Assembly (NCBI RefSeq): GCF_037860835.1
Contig: NZ_JBBEOG010000004.1
Coordinates: 124,001 to 188,000 of the forward strand
DNA length: 64,000 nt
Direction of reading: 5' to 3'
DNA from: Aquipuribacter nitratireducens
Lineage (GTDB): Bacteria > Actinomycetota > Actinomycetes > Actinomycetales > JBBAYJ01
Under the pieces are notes generated by a model. The model ran no database searches. It had not been told where the DNA came from and saw only the letters and a list, made by a program, of their open reading frames with translations. A program made the translations under genes and the position numbers. Positions 7,199 to 51,114 of this stretch are shown piece by piece. Each line of letters begins with the position of its first letter. The first letter of the stretch is position 1.

Positions 7199-9211
7199 AT
7201 GAGACTCCGATCGACACACACGCGGAGGGGGTGGGTCGGCCTCGCAGGTTCGGCTGTGGTGCTGTCCCTCCTCACGGCTCCCGCCTTCGCCCACCCGGAC
7301 GGTGCGGTCACCGACGAACCCGGCCACGAGGACGAGCACGGCAACCACGCCGACCCCACGCAGATCCAGCCGCCACCCGACCCGGCGGCGCCCCTGCTGG
7401 AGCACGACGCCTCCACGTCCGACGACATCGTCAGCAGCGGACCGAACGCCAAGGTCACGAAGAACCTCGCCGTCGCCGGGCGGGGCGAGCGACTGCTGGC
7501 CGACGGCACGACCGACGTGTGGTCGCACGACGGCTACGCCTACCTGGGCACCTTCAATGACCCCTGCGGCACCGGGGAGGGCTACGCCGAGGGCGGCGCC
7601 GTCGACCTCATCGACGACCGCACCGCGCCCGGCGTGGTGGTCTTCGACGTCCACAACCCCAACAAGGTCGAGTACGTCGGCAACCTGCCGTCGGTCGACG
7701 GCAGCCGGATCAACGACGTCAAGGTCGCGACCATGAGCGACGGCAGCGACGTCCTCGTCCACTCCAACGAGAGCTGTGACGGCGGCCCCGGCGGCTTCGA
7801 GATCTACGACGTGACCGACCCGAGCCACCCCGTCCACCTCGCCCACGTGCAGACCGACGACATCAACGTGCTGCTGCGGGAGCAGTTCGGCTACACGGAC
7901 TTCGGGGTCCACAACAACTACCTGTTCAGCCGGGACGGTCGCGACTTCAACGCCGTCCAGGTCGAAGGGCTGCTCGGCAGCTTCCAGGTGTACGACATCA
8001 CCGACCCGGCGAACGTCGAGCTCGTCTCGTGGTTCGGCGCCGAGTACCTGCTCGACCCGGGCGTCGACTGGGCGACGACGACCGACATAAGCGCGATCAT
8101 CGAGGCCGAGGCGTACCTCTTCAGCGGGTACGGGGCGTCGCAGAACCGGTTCCTCCACGACCACTACGTGACACCGGACGGCGCGCAGGCGTACCTCGCC
8201 AACTGGGACGCCGGGCTCCTGCTCGTCGACCTGGGCGACCTCGACGGCTCGGCGGCGACGCTCGTCTCCCAGGCGATCGACCCGGCGAGCGAGGACGGCG
8301 AGGTCAACAGCCACTCCGTGTGGCCCACGGCCGACGGCACGATCGTCGTCGAGGGCGAGGAGGACTTCGCCCCCTTCGAGACCGTGTTCACCATCGACTC
8401 CGGACCCGCAGCGGGCGAGTACGCCGCGTCCGAGGGCGCCATCACCGTGCCCATCGACAGCCTTCCGGGCGACGAGATGAGCGGACCGACCGTCTACGTC
8501 GGTCTCGCGTGCAACGGCGACCCGCTGCCCGCCGCCACGGGTGACGGCCAGATCGCACTCATCCAGCGCGGCGTCTGCGCGTTCACCGACAAGATCAACA
8601 ACGCGGACGCTGCCGGCTACGACGGCGTCGTCGTCTTCAACGACGCGGCCCGCGGTGATGCACTCGTCAGCATGGGCGGTGACCCGGTCGACCTGCCAGG
8701 CGTCTTCGTCGGCCACTCGGCCGGGCTCCTCATCGCCGGCGTCGGCTCCGCGGCGGACCTCGTGCTGGGAGCGGCCGGCGAGACCGTCACGGTCGCGGTG
8801 GAGCCCAACGGGTGGAGCGGCATGCGGATCTGGGACTACTCCAACCCGGCCAACCCGGTGCTCGCGAGCACGTTCAACACCGTGTGCAGCGCGGACCCGG
8901 TGGCCGACGGGTGCGACCCGCGCGGCACGTACTCCAGCCACAACGTCATCGTCGAAGGCACGAAGGCGTACATCAGCTGGTACTCCGACGGCGTGCTCGT
9001 GCTCGACGTGTCCGACCCGTACAACCCCGTCGAGGTGGCGAGGTACCACGAGTCGGGCCCGGAGTTCGAGGCCCGCAACGGCGGCATCCAGGACGTGTGG
9101 GGCATCCACAAGCAGGCCAGGTCGCCGTGGATCTACGCGTCCGACCGAAACGGCGGCCTGTATGTGCTCAAGGAGTACGGCGCAGGCTCCGCGAAGCAGG
9201 GCAAGGGCTGA
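7199..9211 (+). CDS. Secreted LVIVD-repeat protein with inserted PA domain
   Basis: 670 residues with a Sec signal peptide (basic MRLRSTHTRRGW, hydrophobic core, cleavage near AFA-HPD). Repeated segments of the type VFDVHNPNKVEYVGNL, IYDVTDPSHPVHLAHV, VYDITDPANVELVSW and VLDVSDPYNPVEVARY are LVIVD-type beta-propeller blades. A protease-associated (PA) domain is inserted near residues 425-535 (IALIQRGVCAFTDKINNA...GYDGVVVFND), and propeller repeats resume after it (MRIWDYSNPANPV). GGAAGG precedes the ATG at 7199. A paralogue lies at 46559. Role at the cell surface unknown; no catalytic motif seen. Confidence 0.85.
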   Translation: MRLRSTHTRRGWVGLAGSAVVLSLLTAPAFAHPDGAVTDEPGHEDEHGNHADPTQIQPPPDPAAPLLEHDASTSDDIVSSGPNAKVTKNLAVAGRGERLLADGTTDVWSHDGYAYLGTFNDPCGTGEGYAEGGAVDLIDDRTAPGVVVFDVHNPNKVEYVGNLPSVDGSRINDVKVATMSDGSDVLVHSNESCDGGPGGFEIYDVTDPSHPVHLAHVQTDDINVLLREQFGYTDFGVHNNYLFSRDGRDFNAVQVEGLLGSFQVYDITDPANVELVSWFGAEYLLDPGVDWATTTDISAIIEAEAYLFSGYGASQNRFLHDHYVTPDGAQAYLANWDAGLLLVDLGDLDGSAATLVSQAIDPASEDGEVNSHSVWPTADGTIVVEGEEDFAPFETVFTIDSGPAAGEYAASEGAITVPIDSLPGDEMSGPTVYVGLACNGDPLPAATGDGQIALIQRGVCAFTDKINNADAAGYDGVVVFNDAARGDALVSMGGDPVDLPGVFVGHSAGLLIAGVGSAADLVLGAAGETVTVAVEPNGWSGMRIWDYSNPANPVLASTFNTVCSADPVADGCDPRGTYSSHNVIVEGTKAYISWYSDGVLVLDVSDPYNPVEVARYHESGPEFEARNGGIQDVWGIHKQARSPWIYASDRNGGLYVLKEYGAGSAKQGKG

Positions 9212-44910: not shown

Positions 44911-46428
44911 ATGACGGACGGCCCCGGCGGCTCCACGGCAGGCGCATCGAGCGCGGCGGCTCGGACCGCCGCGGGCGACCCCGGCGACGGCGAGCAGGGG
45001 GGCGGCCGCAGCCACACCGCCAACGCCGTGCTCATCTCGGTCGTCGCCGCCATCGGCGGGTTCCTCTTCGGCTTCGACACCGCCGTCATCAACGGCGCCG
45101 TCGACGCCCTCAGCGGCGACTTCGAGCTGTCCCCGGGTCTCACCGGCTTCGCCGTCTCCAGCGCACTGCTCGGCTGCGCCACCGGGGCATGGTTCGCCGG
45201 CGGCGCCGCCGACCGGTTCGGTCGGCCCAAGGTCATGATCATCGCGAGCGTCCTCTTCACCGCGAGCGCGATCGGGTCCGGCCTCGCGTTCGGCGTGTGG
45301 GACCTCATCCTCTGGCGCGTCGTCGGCGGTCTGGGTGTCGGGACCGCCTCCGTCATCGCTCCCGCCTACATCGCGGAGATCGCGCCCGCGGCGATCCGCG
45401 GCCGGCTCGGCTCCCTCCAGCAGCTCGCGATCGTCACCGGCATCTTCGTCGCGCTGCTGTCCGACGCCTTCCTCGCCGGGGCCGCCGGCGGTGCCGCCGA
45501 GGAGCTGTGGCTCGGGCTGACCGCGTGGCGGTGGATGTTCCTGTCCGAGCTCGTCCCCGCGGTCGCCTACGGCCTCCTCGCCCTCACCATCCCGGAGTCG
45601 CCGCGCTTCCTCGTCGCGCGGGGCGAGGACCGCCGCGCCCGCACGGTGCTGCTGCGGCTCATGTCCGGCGAGAGCGCCCGCGAGCGCATCGACGCGATCA
45701 AGAAGTCGCTCCAGGGGCAGAAGGCCGTCGGGCTGTCGAACCTGCGGGGCGCGGCGCTCGGGCTGCAGCCGATCGTGTGGGTCGGGATCGCCCTGTCGCT
45801 GTTCCAGCAGCTCGTCGGCATCAACGTGATCTTCTACTACTCCACGACGCTGTGGCGCTCCGTCGGCTTCGAGGAGTCCGACGCCCTCACCGTCACCGTC
45901 ATCACGTCCGTGACGAACGTCGCCGTGACGGTCGTCGCGATCCTCCTGGTCGACAGGATCGGCAGGCGCCCGCTGCTGCTCATCGGCTCGACGGCGATGA
46001 CCGCCGCACTCGCCACCATGGCCGTGTGCTTCTCGCAGGCGACAGGGTCGGGGGAGGACGTGAGCCTCGCGGAGCCGTGGTCGACGGTGGCCCTCGTCGC
46101 GGCGAACGTCTTCGTCGTCGGGTTCGGCGTCTCGTGGGGCCCGGTCGTGTGGGTGCTGCTCGGGGAGATGTTCCCCAACCGGCTCCGGGCGCCCGCCCTG
46201 GCGGTCGCCGCGGCCGCGCAGTGGGTCGCGAACTTCGCCGTCAGCACGACCTTCCCGTGGCTGTCGGAGAACGCGGGTCTCGCCGTGACCTACGGCGGCT
46301 ACGCGGCCTTCGCGCTCCTGTCCGGGCTGTTCGTCGCGACCGTCGTGCAGGAGACCAAGGGGCGCGAGCTGGAGGACATGACGGGAGAGACCGGACGACG
46401 TCGCAAGGACCTCGTCGGCAGCACGTGA
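44911..46428 (+). CDS. Sugar porter MFS transporter
   Basis: 505 residues, twelve membrane segments after a 30-residue disordered Gly/Ser/Asp N-terminus. Sugar porter motifs: GGFLFGFDTAVINGAV, GGAADRFGRPKVMIIAS, WRVVGGLGVGTASVIAPAYIAEIAPAAIRGRLGSLQQLAIVTG, PESPRFLVARG, QQLVGINVIFYYSTTLW, DRIGRRPLLLIG and the C-terminal VQETKGRELEDM. Proton-sugar symport is expected; substrate may be a pentose or hexose. A TAGGCG element ends 6 nt before the ATG, compatible with a leaderless mRNA. Could supply the arabinose pathway, unproven. Confidence 0.93.
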   Translation: MTDGPGGSTAGASSAAARTAAGDPGDGEQGGGRSHTANAVLISVVAAIGGFLFGFDTAVINGAVDALSGDFELSPGLTGFAVSSALLGCATGAWFAGGAADRFGRPKVMIIASVLFTASAIGSGLAFGVWDLILWRVVGGLGVGTASVIAPAYIAEIAPAAIRGRLGSLQQLAIVTGIFVALLSDAFLAGAAGGAAEELWLGLTAWRWMFLSELVPAVAYGLLALTIPESPRFLVARGEDRRARTVLLRLMSGESARERIDAIKKSLQGQKAVGLSNLRGAALGLQPIVWVGIALSLFQQLVGINVIFYYSTTLWRSVGFEESDALTVTVITSVTNVAVTVVAILLVDRIGRRPLLLIGSTAMTAALATMAVCFSQATGSGEDVSLAEPWSTVALVAANVFVVGFGVSWGPVVWVLLGEMFPNRLRAPALAVAAAAQWVANFAVSTTFPWLSENAGLAVTYGGYAAFALLSGLFVATVVQETKGRELEDMTGETGRRRKDLVGST

Positions 46429-46472
46429 CCGTCCTGCCACCCGACCGTCTGGAAACACAAACTTCTGCCGGA

Positions 46473-46505
46473 GGCCTGTTACCGCCGGGTACGTCCCGCT
46501 AGGTT
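46473..46505 (+). promoter_or_regulatory. Promoter with 19-bp element shared with the M28 peptidase gene
   Basis: GGCCTGTTACCGCCGGGTA (46473-46491) is followed after 8 bases by TAGGTT (46500-46505), a -10 like sequence. GTTACC (46478-46483) lies 16 bp before the -10. The same 19 bases recur at 48555 with the same spacing. TACC-GCCG-GGTA within it is a dyad. The element starts 86 bases before the ATG at 46559. Confidence 0.7.
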
Positions 46506-46558
46506 CGCCGCCATCGACGGCGGCGGACGAGCCGCCTCAGCCACGAATGAGGTCGAGG

Positions 46559-48427
46559 ATGAGACGACGACTACCGGCAGCGATCGCGGCCGGAGCAGCA
46601 GCCACCCTGCTCCTGCCCATGGCCGCCTACGCGCACCCGGACCACGGGCAGCAGTCCGGCAAGGAGATGTTCCCCGGCGAGGGGGTCATCGTCGAGGGGG
46701 ACAAGCAGCACGGGGGTGACGAGGGCCACCTCGACCCCGTCAGCTACGGGGTCGAGGTCGTCGGCAAGGCGCCCGTCAGCCCCACCGAGGGCGGCCTCGA
46801 GGGTCGCGTGGCCGACGTGTACGCGAAGGGCGACTACGCCTACCTCACGTCGTTCCGCGGCAACGGCACCGACGCGTGCGTCGGCGGCGTCTTCGTCATG
46901 GACATCTCCGACCTCGAGAACCCCGCCGAGGTGCCCGACTCCTTCATCCCCACCAGCCCCGGCTCGTACGCCGGCGAAGGCGTCCAGGTCATCACGATCG
47001 GCAAGCGGGACGTCCTCATCCACCAGAACGAGACCTGCCCGGGGGCGACGCCGGACGCCGGGACCTTCGGCGGCATCAACCTCTGGGACGTGACGGACCC
47101 CACCAACCCCGTCCAGCTCGCTGCGCACGCCGGTGACACCGACGGCGGCGCGTCCGCCAACACCGTCCACAGCTTCTACGCGTGGTACGACCACAAGTCG
47201 AAGCGCACCTGGGCCGCGCTCGTCGACAACGAGGAGTTCGCCGACGTCGACATCATGGACATCAGCGACCCGGCCAACCCGGTCATGGTGAACGACACCC
47301 TCGACATGGAGGCCCTCTTCGGGGTCAGCCAGGACTCGCCCGCGGGCCTCACGTCGATCTTCAGCCACGACATGGACGTCGTGAAGCTCGGCAGCAAGTA
47401 CGTGATGTCGCTCAACTACTGGGACGGCGGGTACGTCGTCCTCGACGTCTCCGACCCGCGCCCCGGTGCGGTGAAGCTCATCGCCGAGAGCGACTACGCC
47501 GCGCTCGACGAGGAGAGGCTCGCGCGCGGCCAGGAGATCTCGCCGGAGGGCAACGCCCACCAGTCGGAGATCTCGCCCAACGGCAAGTTCCTCATCGGTA
47601 CCGACGAGGACTTCAACCCGTTCCGCATCGTCGCGACCATCGACTCGGGTCCGTACGCCGGCACCGAGTTCCGCGCCGTCCAGGCCGGCGGCACCCCCGC
47701 GATCAGCGAGGACCAGTCGATCTCCGGCCCCACGACCTTCGTCGGTGAGGCGTGCTCCGCACTGCCCGCGGGGTCCGGCACCGCCCTGGTGGAGCGAGGC
47801 ACCTGCGCCTTCCAGGTCAAGCTCGACAACATCACGGCGGCCGGCTACGACGCGGGCATCGTGTTCAACGCGGTGCGCGCCGACTGCGAGACGTACGTCA
47901 ACATGCTCGCGGACAGCGAGACGACCCCGTTCGTCTTCGTCAACCGCACCACGGGCCTGCAGATGCTCGGCATCGACCCGACGTCGAGCCCGTGCACCGT
48001 CGCCAGCCCCGCGGTCGGCAGCGGGTCCGCCGACGTCACGATCGAGGCGATCTTCGACGGCTGGGGCTACGTCCGCCTCTTCAGCACGGACATCCCGCGC
48101 AGCCCGAAGGAGACCACCGGCTCGATCTCCCAGATCGACACCTACGCCGTCGAGGAGTCCCAGGACCCCGCGTACGCCGAGGGCTACGGCGACCTGTCGG
48201 TCCACGAGGTCGCCATCGACCCCGACGAGAACCTCGCCTACCTGTCGTACTACGCCGCCGGCTTCCGGGTCGTCGAGTACGGCAAGGACGGCATGACGGA
48301 GGTCGGCGCCTTCATCGACGAGGGCGGCAACAACTTCTGGGGTGTCGAGGTCATCGAGCGGGACGGCGAGACGTACGTCCTCGCCAGCGACCGCGACTAC
48401 GGGCTCTACGTGTTCCAGACCCCGTGA
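46559..48427 (+). CDS. Secreted LVIVD-repeat protein with inserted PA domain (paralogue)
   Basis: 622 residues from the ATG at 46559, chosen because ATGAGG stands six bases upstream; the ATG at 46547 would add four residues. Signal peptide MRRRLPAAIAAGAAATLLLP with cleavage near AYA-HPD. LVIVD-type blades (VFVMDISDLENPAEVP, LWDVTDPTNPVQLAAH, IMDISDPANPVMVND, VLDVSDPRPGAVKLIAE), PA domain at about 385-490 (TALVERGTCAFQVKLDNITAAGYDAGIVFN), then further blades (YVRLFSTDI; FRVVEYGKDG). Same order as the protein at 7199. No catalytic residues recognised. Confidence 0.87.
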   Translation: MRRRLPAAIAAGAAATLLLPMAAYAHPDHGQQSGKEMFPGEGVIVEGDKQHGGDEGHLDPVSYGVEVVGKAPVSPTEGGLEGRVADVYAKGDYAYLTSFRGNGTDACVGGVFVMDISDLENPAEVPDSFIPTSPGSYAGEGVQVITIGKRDVLIHQNETCPGATPDAGTFGGINLWDVTDPTNPVQLAAHAGDTDGGASANTVHSFYAWYDHKSKRTWAALVDNEEFADVDIMDISDPANPVMVNDTLDMEALFGVSQDSPAGLTSIFSHDMDVVKLGSKYVMSLNYWDGGYVVLDVSDPRPGAVKLIAESDYAALDEERLARGQEISPEGNAHQSEISPNGKFLIGTDEDFNPFRIVATIDSGPYAGTEFRAVQAGGTPAISEDQSISGPTTFVGEACSALPAGSGTALVERGTCAFQVKLDNITAAGYDAGIVFNAVRADCETYVNMLADSETTPFVFVNRTTGLQMLGIDPTSSPCTVASPAVGSGSADVTIEAIFDGWGYVRLFSTDIPRSPKETTGSISQIDTYAVEESQDPAYAEGYGDLSVHEVAIDPDENLAYLSYYAAGFRVVEYGKDGMTEVGAFIDEGGNNFWGVEVIERDGETYVLASDRDYGLYVFQTP

Positions 48428-48485
48428 CCTGAGCACCACACCCGACAGGGCCCGCGAGCGACCTGCTCGCGGGCCCTGTCGCGTC
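48424..48485 (+). terminator. Hairpin terminator, copy 1 of a duplicated cassette
   Basis: Perfect 17-bp stem (48443-48459 with 48465-48481; left arm CGACAGGGCCCGCGAGC) and loop GACCT. The whole stretch GTGACCTGAGCACCAC to CTGTCGCGTC recurs at 50241-50300 with only a 2-base indel and one substitution. The cassette begins inside the stop codon region of the LVIVD gene. Confidence 0.92.
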
Positions 48486-48554
48486 ACGCCTCGCCGATCC
48501 GGTCGACACACGAACGCCCGCTCCTATGCCACGACACGAGTATTTTCGCCGTAG

Positions 48555-48587
48555 GGCCTGTTACCGCCGGGTATTCGCCGATATGTT
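48555..48587 (+). promoter_or_regulatory. Promoter of the M28 peptidase gene with the shared 19-bp element
   Basis: GGCCTGTTACCGCCGGGTA (48555-48573) followed after 8 bases by TATGTT (48582-48587) as -10; GTTACC to -10 distance is 16 bp, as in the copy at 46473. Just downstream, CCCCC-GTTCA-GGGGG (48588-48602) can form a hairpin in the 5' leader before the AAGGGA ribosome site. Confidence 0.7.
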
Positions 48588-48628
48588 CCCCCGTTCAGGG
48601 GGGAATCATCTGCGAAGGGAACCGAGTC

Positions 48629-50230
48629 ATGCCTGCCCACACCCGCTCCTGGCGCGTCGGCACCGTCGCCGCCGCCGCCGGTGCGCTCGTCGCCTCCTCG
48701 GTGGCCGCCCTGCCTGCGACCGCCGCCCCGGCCCAGGCCGGCTGCGACAGCCGGACGAACAACACGTACAGCAAGCTCCTCGAGTGCGTCCGGGTCGAGG
48801 GCGTCGTCGACCACATGGAGGCCTTCCAGGCCATCGCCGACGCCAACGACGGCACCCGCGCCGACCAGACCCCCGGCTACGAGGCGAGCGTCGACTACGT
48901 CGTCGACGTCATGACTGCTGCGGGCTGGGACGTGGAGCGCGTGCCCTTCGAGTACGTCGGCGGGATCGACACCGTCGTGCAGCAGCTCTCGCCGGTGCAG
49001 GCCACGTACGAGACGAACGACGCCACCGGCACCGGCGGGGGCGACGTCACCGGCACCGTGACGCCGGTCGACATCAACCTCGCGGGCAACCGGGCGAACA
49101 GCAGTGGCTGCGAGGCCGCCGACTTCGCGGGCTTCCCGGCCGGGACCATCGCGCTCGTGCAGCGCGGCAGCTGCGCGTTCGCGATCAAGGCTCAGAACGC
49201 CATCGACGCGGGCGCCAGCGCAGTGATCATCTTCAACCAGGGCGACACTGCGGCACCGGACCGCAACAACGCCATCAACCCGACGATCGAGCCCGTCGAG
49301 TCGCCGATCCCGGTCGTCGGCACCACGTTCGCCGCAGGCGAGTCGCTCGCCCAGCCGGGCTCCACGGCGCGGGTGTTCGTGCCGACCAACGTGTCGGAGA
49401 ACGTCATCGCCGAGCTGCCCGGTCGCACCGACGGCAACGTCGTCATGGCCGGTGCACACCTCGACTCGGTTCCCGAGGGCCCCGGCATCAACGACAACGG
49501 CAGCGGATCCGCGGCGCTCCTCGAGATCGCGGAGCAGATGGCGAAGTCGAAGCCGTACAACACGGTCCGGTTCGCCTGGTGGGGTGCGGAGGAGTTCGGA
49601 CTGATCGGCTCGACCGAGTGGGTCGAGCAGCGCACGCAGGAGGAGCTCGACGAGATCGCGCTCTACCTCAACTTCGACATGATCGGGTCGCCGAACTACT
49701 ACCTCGGCATCTACGACGCGAACGAGTCGAGCTTCGAGGCGCCCGTCGTCGTGCCCGAGGGCTCCGAGGACATCGAGCGGACGTTCGAGGAGTACTACAC
49801 GCTGGCAGGCGAGCCGTACGACGACTCCGCCTACTCCGGGCGCAGTGACTACCAGGCCTTCATCGAGAACGGCATCCCCTCCGGCGGTCTCTTCACCGGC
49901 GCCGAGGTCGTCAAGACCCCCGAGCAGGAGGCGATCTGGGGCGGCACCGCGGGTGAGCAGTTCGACCCCTGCTACCACCTCGCGTGCGACACGATCGACA
50001 ACTACGACGCCCACGCGCTCGCGGTGAACTCCGACGCGGTCGCGTACGCCGTCTTCACCTACGCCGCCTCCACGGAGGACGTCAACGGCGTCAGCGGCGC
50101 GAGGATCCCGGGCAGGTTCTCGGTCCCCGCCGAGGTCGACGGTCCGCGGTACACCTTCGCCGGCCCCTTGGGGGGCGACGGCCCTCACGACCACGACCAC
50201 GACCACGACCACGAGGGCGAGGAGTCCTGA
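48629..50230 (+). CDS. Secreted M28 zinc aminopeptidase with PA domain and His/Asp tail
   Basis: 533 residues with a Sec signal (TVAAAAGALVASSVAALPATAAPAQA). PA domain at about 155-260 (TIALVQRGSCAFAIKAQNAIDAGASAVIIFN). The M28 catalytic domain has all metal ligands and the base: His277 and Asp279 (GAHLDS), bridging Asp289 (INDNGSG), Glu321-Glu322 (WGAEEFG), Asp350 (NFDMIG) and His450 (CYHLACD). Related to Streptomyces aminopeptidase and aminopeptidase Y. The C-terminus ends in five His alternating with Asp, encoded by a hexanucleotide repeat, probably a metal-binding tail. Confidence 0.93.
   Translation: MPAHTRSWRVGTVAAAAGALVASSVAALPATAAPAQAGCDSRTNNTYSKLLECVRVEGVVDHMEAFQAIADANDGTRADQTPGYEASVDYVVDVMTAAGWDVERVPFEYVGGIDTVVQQLSPVQATYETNDATGTGGGDVTGTVTPVDINLAGNRANSSGCEAADFAGFPAGTIALVQRGSCAFAIKAQNAIDAGASAVIIFNQGDTAAPDRNNAINPTIEPVESPIPVVGTTFAAGESLAQPGSTARVFVPTNVSENVIAELPGRTDGNVVMAGAHLDSVPEGPGINDNGSGSAALLEIAEQMAKSKPYNTVRFAWWGAEEFGLIGSTEWVEQRTQEELDEIALYLNFDMIGSPNYYLGIYDANESSFEAPVVVPEGSEDIERTFEEYYTLAGEPYDDSAYSGRSDYQAFIENGIPSGGLFTGAEVVKTPEQEAIWGGTAGEQFDPCYHLACDTIDNYDAHALAVNSDAVAYAVFTYAASTEDVNGVSGARIPGRFSVPAEVDGPRYTFAGPLGGDGPHDHDHDHDHEGEES
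50186..50215 (+). repeat. CACGAC hexanucleotide microsatellite in the peptidase gene
   Basis: Four CACGAC units and one CACGAG from 50186 to 50215 encode the alternating His-Asp tail of the peptidase. Units are multiples of three, so copy-number change by slippage would alter tail length without breaking the frame. Confidence 0.9.
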
Positions 50231-50240
50231 CGGTCGTGAC

Positions 50241-50300
50241 GTGACCTGAGCACCACCCGACGGGGCCCGCGAGCGACCTGCTCGCGGGCCCTGTCGCGTC
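50241..50300 (+). terminator. Hairpin terminator, copy 2 of the duplicated cassette
   Basis: 17-bp stem (50258-50274 with 50280-50296) with one G-T pair and loop GACCT, 10 bases after the peptidase stop. Nearly identical to 48424-48485, including about 15 bases upstream of the stem and GCGTC downstream, showing that the cassette itself was copied. Confidence 0.92.
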
Positions 50301-50349
50301 CTCGTGCGGAATCGACAGCCGGGGGAACACGCGAGGACGGTGGGACGGC

Positions 50350-51114
50350 ATGCCACGCACACAGGGACGAACCCACGCACGAGCTCACGGACGAGCACTG
50401 GTCGTCGCCGTCGCGGGAGCCTCCCTCCTCCTCGCCGCGTGCGGGGACGAGGGCTCGGACACGGCCGCGCCGGACGTCGTCGACACCGACGTCGTCGCGA
50501 CCGTGACCGACGAGGCGACGACCGTGGTGACGGGCGAGGTGACGGACGAGGTCACGGACACGGTGACGGACGAGTCCACCGTCACCGACACGGAGACCGT
50601 CGTCGAGACGCAGACCGAGACCGTCGACGCCGACGACGGCTCCGCCGTGGACGCCGGCGACGAGGACGGCGGGATCGACGCGAGCACCGAGCCGGACACC
50701 CGCGACGCGACAGGGGAGCCGGTCACGCTCGTCGACGTCCGGGTCGGCTCCCACGAGGAGTACGACCGGGTCGTGTGGGAGTTCGCCGGCGACGGCACAC
50801 CCGGCTGGCGCGCGGAGTACGTCGACGACCCGACGCGGCAGGGCTCCGGGCAGCCGGTCGACCTCGAGGGTGACGGGACGCTGTCCGTCGCGATCGACGG
50901 CACCGCGCTGCCGACCGACGCCCCTGCCGGCGTCACGCCGTACGACGGTGCCCAGCGGGTGGCCGCCGCCTCGTTCGAGACGATCACCGAGGTGCTCGTC
51001 GGGAACTGGTTCGAGGGGACCTACGACGCGTTCGTCGGGGTCGAGGGCGAGCAGCCCTTCCGGGTCCGGCTCTTCGAGGACCCGACCCGCGTGGTCCTCG
51101 ACGTCGAGAACTGA
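50350..51114 (+). CDS. Lipoprotein with AMIN-like C-terminal domain
   Basis: 254 residues from the ATG at 50350. Signal with twin-basic N-terminus and lipobox LLLAAC, so lipid-anchored at residue about 31. A Thr/Asp/Val-rich linker (repeats of TVTDEST/TDTETVVE type, about residues 40-110) holds a folded domain at about 120-254 (VTLVDVRVGSHEEYDRVVWEFAG...EVLVGNWFEGTYDAFVGVEGEQPFRVRLFEDPTRVVLDVEN), the actinobacterial AMIN-like domain. Possible cell-wall binding. It lies directly after the peptidase and its terminator. Confidence 0.82.
   Translation: MPRTQGRTHARAHGRALVVAVAGASLLLAACGDEGSDTAAPDVVDTDVVATVTDEATTVVTGEVTDEVTDTVTDESTVTDTETVVETQTETVDADDGSAVDAGDEDGGIDASTEPDTRDATGEPVTLVDVRVGSHEEYDRVVWEFAGDGTPGWRAEYVDDPTRQGSGQPVDLEGDGTLSVAIDGTALPTDAPAGVTPYDGAQRVAAASFETITEVLVGNWFEGTYDAFVGVEGEQPFRVRLFEDPTRVVLDVEN

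Follow-up and report, generated by a model that had tools for sequence, protein, structure and literature searches.

The capture of control sequences by a gained gene is a known kind of event. In work on TDAH (PMC11111574), a transferred gene is reported to be activated through a local tandem duplication with 9-bp microhomology borders. Here, we describe a locus of Aquipuribacter nitratireducens at which a gained gene would likewise have obtained its control by local copying; it differs from TDAH promoter capture in that the capture is read from sequence, in that a promoter core and a terminator would both have been copied, and in that a single unit remains. The locus lies in a stretch of 64,000 nucleotides (the window; positions 124,001–188,000 of contig NZ_JBBEOG010000004.1, here contig C4; GC content 0.734), part of a genome of 3.83 Mb in 26 contigs. 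It holds two adjacent genes for predicted exported proteins, an LVIVD-like propeller protein and an M28 aminopeptidase-like protein, each with a PA domain, and each gene is preceded by a copy of the same 19-bp promoter-core element (E) and followed by a copy of the same hairpin cassette (T). Both the LVIVD repeat and the propeller fold have described representatives: the repeat of surface proteins is named in PMC2447325, and the title of the 2016 structure paper on 5hrm, cited in PMC11656708, refers to a propeller of seven blades with a binuclear metal centre. We consider it probable that the LVIVD-like gene was gained beside the M28 gene and is bracketed by copies of the M28 promoter core and terminator.

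The two genes and their control sequences are arranged as follows (window coordinates):

46473–46491, + strand: 19-bp promoter-core element, copy 1 (E1), GGCCTGTTACCGCCGGGTA, an exact match to copy 2
46500–46505, + strand: -10-like hexamer TAGGTT, 8 bases 3' of E1, read from the sequence
46559–48427, + strand: gene for the LVIVD-like/PA propeller protein, predicted to be exported (PA, 34.8 bits; AlphaFold model), in a frame open from an ATG at 46547
48425–48485, + strand: hairpin cassette, copy 1 (T1), with homology starting at the LVIVD-like stop codon; -41.5 kcal/mol
48555–48573, + strand: 19-bp promoter-core element, copy 2 (E2), presumed original, GGCCTGTTACCGCCGGGTA, an exact match to copy 1, in an M28 upstream region that aligns with that of the congener G001
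48582–48587, + strand: -10-like hexamer TATGTT, 8 bases 3' of E2, read from the sequence
48629–50230, + strand: gene for the M28 aminopeptidase-like/PA protein, predicted to be exported, with a His/Asp-rich tail (Peptidase_M28, 165.2 bits against a cut-off of 21.3; PA, 63.1 bits against 23.9)
50242–50300, + strand: hairpin cassette, copy 2 (T2), presumed original, with related hairpins 3' of M28 genes in congeners

The original prediction, made from the window alone, that both genes carry the same element at the same distance from a -10 sequence was borne out. The 19-mer occurs exactly twice, each time 8 bases 5' of a TAnGTT hexamer, and the two promoter blocks form a direct repeat of 37 bases with 30/37 positions identical. 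When the window was dinucleotide-shuffled 100 times, the 19-mer at up to 3 mismatches was matched 0.03 times on average, and no shuffle contained two matches. E would span the -35 region together with some of the spacer, with a similar -10 after it, and we infer that it forms part of a working promoter; the original prediction puts the transcription starts at 46510 and 48595. Two further features were considered for these regions and dropped: a likeness to the mycobacterial copper operator TACCC-N5-GGTA, from which the element departs in its spacing (reverse strand, TACCC-N3-GGTA), and leader hairpins, which differ between genes and species and hinge on the positions of the start sites.

The near-identical cassettes of about 60 bases predicted 3' of both genes were likewise confirmed, with 58 of 61 alignment columns identical, the rest being a single mismatch and a 2-base gap (score 101.5; best of 1000 shuffles, 36), and two matches to the cassette pattern were found in 0/100 shuffles of the window. 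The homology of T1 begins at the very TGA that ends the LVIVD-like gene, and the same TGA stands 11 bases past the stop codon of the M28 gene. Each cassette has a stem of 17 contiguous pairs, with folding energies of -41.5 and -40.8 kcal/mol over 58 bases. Both thus possess the strong GC-rich hairpin of a classical intrinsic terminator; no T-run lies 3' of either stem, and a scan for classical terminators returned neither hairpin. Tail-less terminators are used by actinobacteria.

We compared the locus with two congeneric genomes, G001 and G002 (our own genome being G000). In the window, the gene order is ClpB-like, sugar porter, LVIVD-like/PA, M28/PA and AMIN-like lipoprotein, followed by DUF368 and exonuclease III on the opposite strand (the names ClpB, DUF368 and exonuclease III were assigned by eye). 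The left neighbour of the pair is

44911–46428, + strand: gene for a sugar-porter MFS transporter (Pfam Sugar_tr, 382.8 bits)

and M28 comes immediately after this transporter gene in both congeners (2/2). G002 has the order ClpB, transporter, M28, DUF368, exonuclease III. One contig of G001 carries ClpB, a gap of about 1.2 kb, the transporter and the start of M28, and another begins with the end of M28, followed by exonuclease III. The LVIVD-like protein has no relative at E <= 0.001 in either congener (one of the three genomes matched, our own, with all candidates scored).

The hairpin 3' of our M28 gene has relatives at the corresponding place in the congeners. Its alignment scored 80 with the G002 hairpin (shuffle maximum 39.5), 54.5 with that on G001 contig C51 (shuffle maximum 39) and 45 with that on G001 contig C278 (shuffle maximum 42), with 0/1000 shuffles as good in each case, and an unrelated G001 hairpin used as a control scored 23. 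Upstream, our M28 region can be aligned along its length to that of G001 (3/1000 shuffles as good), and the M28 genes of both G001 and G002 carry TACGTT at the place aligned to TATGTT. The region upstream of the LVIVD-like gene aligns with neither congener (618/1000 shuffles as good for G001 and 381/1000 for G002). Based on these hairpin and upstream comparisons, it is most likely the M28 gene to which the promoter core and the terminator belong by descent, and the LVIVD-like gene would hold the copies. The evidence on the direction of copying is stronger in the case of the terminator than in that of the promoter.

More than one M28 3' end was seen in G001, in different neighbourhoods: the one on C278 (L159) lies beside exonuclease III, an arrangement like that of the window region, and the one on C51 (L158) lies near CopC-like and NRAMP-like genes (named by eye). 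M28 seems to be duplicated in that genome.

The LVIVD-like protein has few near-full-length relatives in its own order. Among 297 genomes of the order, 18 match it at E <= 0.001, and a near-full-length relative occurs in only three (our own, G226 and G250); in 14 of the remaining 15 the match is confined to the surroundings of the PA domain, and in one it lies elsewhere. The G226 protein is identical to that of Cryobacterium gelidum, from which we judge that Microbacteriaceae belong to this order. A tree was computed from 63 of 77 translated loci (8 repeat sequences, 4 partial and 2 multi-piece rows were left out) by a quick method with support values from the approximate likelihood ratio test (SH-aLRT) only, and several long branches were flagged, above all that of a paralogue in the window (L072). 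In this tree, the protein pairs with those of an Actinophytocola bin and Nocardioides immobilis (SH-aLRT 99), inside a clade of 20 rows (SH-aLRT 100) of which 13 are Pseudonocardiales and none is labelled Micrococcales. This placement, outside the order, fits horizontal gain without proving it; taken with the distribution and the gene order of the congeners, the gene is probably a lineage-specific gain, with its nearest kin in Actinophytocola and Nocardioides.

The proposed history is then that the LVIVD-like/PA gene was gained between the sugar-porter gene and the older M28/PA gene, and that the M28 promoter core and hairpin terminator were copied to the newcomer, the terminator being joined exactly at its stop codon. 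The twin promoters would start and the twin hairpins stop transcription, probably giving equal control through copied parts, so that the two secreted products would be expressed in the same conditions, each from its own transcription unit, the two units being twins. That flanks had been copied without coding sequence, as originally predicted, held in part: the control sequences are copies of each other and the coding sequences are unlike except for the PA domain, which indicates that copying or recombination of the flanks took place, and the congeners suggest that of the two genes M28 was the earlier at the locus. Local recombination, template switching or duplication with replacement may have copied the flanks, and three routes are compatible with the data: insertion of a ready cassette, template switching over short tracts, and duplication with subsequent replacement and decay. 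A simple tandem duplication does not account for the left flank of E1. The 9-bp borders of the TDAH case make a microhomology route plausible here, though they are not evidence for it.

Several observations weigh against this history. To the right of the 19-mer, 11 of 18 bases agree, a level reached by 0.4% of window positions, but these are mostly the -10 itself; outside the -10 the agreement is 6/12, which 20% of window positions reach (chance 0.20). The left flanks of E1 and E2 agree no better than chance (280/1000 shuffles as good), which a plain tandem duplication does not predict, and for homologous recombination a copied tract of 19 bp that ends abruptly is short, so that constraint on a binding site could explain it as well. 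A promoter scan listed no consensus sigma-70 promoter between 44800 and 51500. On the congener side, the C278 hairpin exceeds its best shuffle by little (45 against 42), hairpins are not preserved by the shuffling, the alignment of our M28 upstream region with that of G002 is weak (83/1000 shuffles as good), and the absence of the LVIVD-like gene was established in two congeners only. Finally, the GC content at third codon positions (GC3) of the LVIVD-like gene is 0.966, like that of its neighbours, and the end branch of its protein is long (0.49), which indicates that the gain is not clearly recent or that the donor was similar in composition.

These points give room to other explanations. 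The 19-mer could be the operator of a specific regulator, held identical by selection at two promoters, with the terminator likeness a separate event. Such an operator would account for the sharp end of the identity at 19 bases between differing flanks, for the position of the 19-mer where an operator would overlap the -35 and spacer, and for the CCTGTT that G001 keeps upstream of M28 at nearly the same spacing from TACGTT. Its symmetry is poor, however, with at best 4/6 pairs around one centre, for which reason a palindrome in the 19-mer was also dropped as a feature, and at <=2 mismatches neither a third site in our own genome nor any site in G001 or G002 turned up. A regulon made up of just two neighbouring genes is conceivable, but none of the results points to its regulator, for which no search was made. 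We consider an operator unlikely. Tandem duplication of the whole M28 unit, after which the LVIVD-like gene took the place of the coding part in the first copy, would explain why M28 control sequences stand at both ends of that gene in order and orientation, and G001 does have more than one M28 copy. In that case the left flank of E1 should resemble that of E2, and no likeness beyond chance is seen; moreover, the extra G001 copy on C51 lies in a different neighbourhood and so gives no evidence of a tandem pair. Duplication with replacement is therefore a doubtful account.

An LVIVD-like gene that was ancestral at the locus and lost in two congeners would sit well with its neighbour-like third-position composition, and the comparison spans just two congeneric genomes. 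The gene is absent from both, though, and G000 is nearer to G002 than to G001 (transporter identity 158/176 with G002 and 397/468 with G001), so that two losses would be needed; in addition, the nearest relatives were found outside the order. Ancestry at the locus thus seems very unlikely to us. Chance likeness between GC-rich promoter and hairpin sequences might be expected in a GC-rich genome with many GC-rich hairpins; it is refuted by the shuffled windows, none of which held two matches to the 19-mer or to the cassette, and by the T1–T2 score lying far above that of the best shuffle, and we give it practically no weight. Gain of the LVIVD-like gene with capture of the M28 flanks remains our preferred account.

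The original prediction had also proposed a co-regulated surface programme, and the genome-wide search for the 19-mer that it called for gave a clear answer: two genes and no regulon. At <=3 mismatches, the 19-mer has four places in 3.83 Mb, namely the exact pair and two with 3 mismatches, one inside several overlapping long open frames (C1:579214) and one at the end of a 350-codon open frame (C5:143256). No third 19-mer at <=2 mismatches exists in the genome, and G001 and G002 contain none at that threshold. Searching all three genomes for CTGTTACCGCCGGGTA followed by a TANNNT hexamer at <=3 mismatches returned, besides the known pair, a single place in G001 with 3 mismatches, within no open frame of at least 150 codons. 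The element is therefore not scattered at random relative to genes, since it occurs, apart from the two 3-mismatch places, nowhere else; equally, it is not found upstream of several genes across the genome, nor is it kept at orthologous promoters, with only CCTGTT and TAnGTT persisting upstream of the G001 M28 gene. A co-regulated surface programme is thus not supported: the element at <=2 mismatches marks only two adjacent genes, is absent from two congeners, and has no copy at the lipoprotein gene.

For the cassette, 40 of 85 first-look candidates were scored in our own genome, 40 of 124 in G002 and 40 of 78 in G001. Our genome gave two + strand places, with - strand matches reflecting the cassette's own palindrome, and among the candidates scored no third cassette was found. 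G002 gave a match 3' of M28, together with its palindromic - strand match, and three weaker places elsewhere. G001 yielded no match among the candidates scored at the same threshold; its hairpins surfaced by direct alignment.

Beyond the congeners, a regular-expression search of the 450 bases preceding the match start in 60 of 64 LVIVD-like loci, the other 4 being partial, found no motif resembling TGTTAC or TTACC...GGTA. Window-copy loci aside, the best 25 loci listed included 3-mismatch places at L004 and L005 (own genome, known), L032 and L116. Inspection by eye of 12 more distant M28 genes showed no evident shared element upstream, and the exact 19-mer is absent from the viral contigs searched. 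Two Streptomyces plasmids encode a 40% relative of the LVIVD-like protein with no sign of a mobile cassette, their flanks not having been looked at. In some Lentzea and Saccharothrix relatives (L008, L009, L016), GGGGGA was seen by eye 10 or 11 bases after TAnnnT upstream of LVIVD-like genes, a spacing that resembles that of the M28 genes here. None of the titles or abstract openings returned by literature searches named the locus, although such searches could hardly have found it.

The gene calls of the original prediction were right in outline, in that M28 and PA in the second protein and PA in the first lie above their Pfam cut-offs, but the LVIVD match of the first protein (PF08309, 18.4 bits) falls just under the cut-off of 20.2. 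A start of the LVIVD-like gene at 46559 is more likely than one at 46547, as by inspection it is in frame with 46547 and preceded by a Shine-Dalgarno-like GAGG at 46549–46552. Between the sugar porter and E1 (46429–46472) there is no strong hairpin (-4.3 kcal/mol over 44 bases), in contrast to G001, where a hairpin 3' of the transporter folds at -33.2 kcal/mol over 60 bases; given this weak hairpin, read-through from the sugar porter into the LVIVD-like gene would be possible. The third supposed member of the group,

50350–51114, + strand: lipoprotein gene with an AMIN-like domain (137.8 bits)

has no copy of the 19-mer in a scan of the window and shares no control element with the pair, and is best seen as a mere neighbour. 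It had no match in G002 (18 of 27 candidates scored), where there is no room for it between M28 and DUF368.

The LVIVD-like protein shares with LVIVD-repeat surface proteins (PF08309) repeats of the type GGVHVVDISDPxxP, and differs from them in its sub-threshold score and in an inserted PA domain. An AlphaFold model (predicted local distance difference test score, pLDDT, 84.9) predicts a seven-bladed propeller, in which the PA domain (residues 412–472) falls between repeats five and six of seven; the model matches many propellers at Z about 30, so the fold match is not specific. Across 30/30 aligned proteins, D90, E144, H208, H274, H338, H553 and N595 are invariant. Each lies at most 2 residues from the start of a predicted strand, one per repeat (strands 88–94, 146–151, 207–215, 272–281, 337–342, 552–557 and 597–605), on the seven inner strands, and four of the seven are His. 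A site for metal binding or catalysis at the mouth of the propeller would leave just such a conserved pattern, and the product is perhaps a secreted metal-dependent enzyme.

Two further LVIVD-like paralogues exist in the genome, one in the window and one on contig C5. The former is a second LVIVD/PA propeller gene at 7199–9211, about 37 kb upstream, which has no copy of the 19-mer or cassette; it passes the Pfam LVIVD cut-off (41.6 bits against 20.2) and is 29–36% identical to the LVIVD-like protein (two alignments). It keeps the four His, D90, E162, D275, D293, E354, D355, Y569 and D615; E144 is replaced by Asp beside a gap and N595 by Gln, and D227, E230, E341, D353, E554, N596 and D617 differ. 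In the C5 paralogue all of the listed positions are retained, and in the G250 protein all except N596.

Among solved structures, the best Foldseek match of the model was 5hrm, the haloalkylphosphorus hydrolase/phosphotriesterase of Sphingobium sp. TCM1 (E 9.7e-14; template-modelling scores, TM, 0.44/0.55), which was also the only solved molecule matched by a profile of residues 57–375 (E 1.6e-5). The profile match rests on repeat motifs, with no single stretch significant alone. The two proteins have the seven-bladed propeller fold in common, predicted in the case of ours, and differ in sequence (13% identity). 5hrm is not among the 50 matches listed by VIA-align, which says nothing against it. 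We treat the likeness to the Sphingobium enzyme as a lead only.

The M28 protein matches both keratinase KP1 (8ac9; residues 49–486, E 1e-113) and the aminopeptidase 1cp7 (residues 256–482, E 9.8e-60) among solved structures, and has in addition a His/Asp-rich C-terminal tail. Its sequence holds AHLDS, NDNGSG, WWGAEEFG, NFDMIG and CYHLACD, which may provide the zinc ligands and the catalytic Glu. Given its kinship with KP1 and 1cp7, the protein probably trims peptides outside the cell. The tail, HDHDHDHDHEGEES, is encoded at 50186–50227; similar yet different His-rich tails occur in the G002 orthologue and in the G001 copy on C278, and the G001 copy on C51 has none.

We put forward tentatively, as a possible and still speculative reading, that the LVIVD-like/PA proteins of actinobacteria are an uncharacterised family of secreted metal-dependent enzymes with an active site at the propeller mouth, one of which was in this bacterium recruited as a partner of M28 by promoter-core and terminator capture, with both PA proteins released together on shared substrates. 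As regulation, the locus is ordinary: it would be a two-gene case of captured control sequences rather than a genome-wide control programme, and it offers no new regulatory system. It is of note as an example of control-sequence capture by a gained gene, because the source, the copy and relatives free of the newcomer can all be read, so that the way in which an arriving gene gets its control sequences becomes testable at the level of bases. A second point of note is the family of secreted propeller proteins, which has received little study and has an apparent conserved metal or active site; this family is a more interesting lead than the control sequences themselves.

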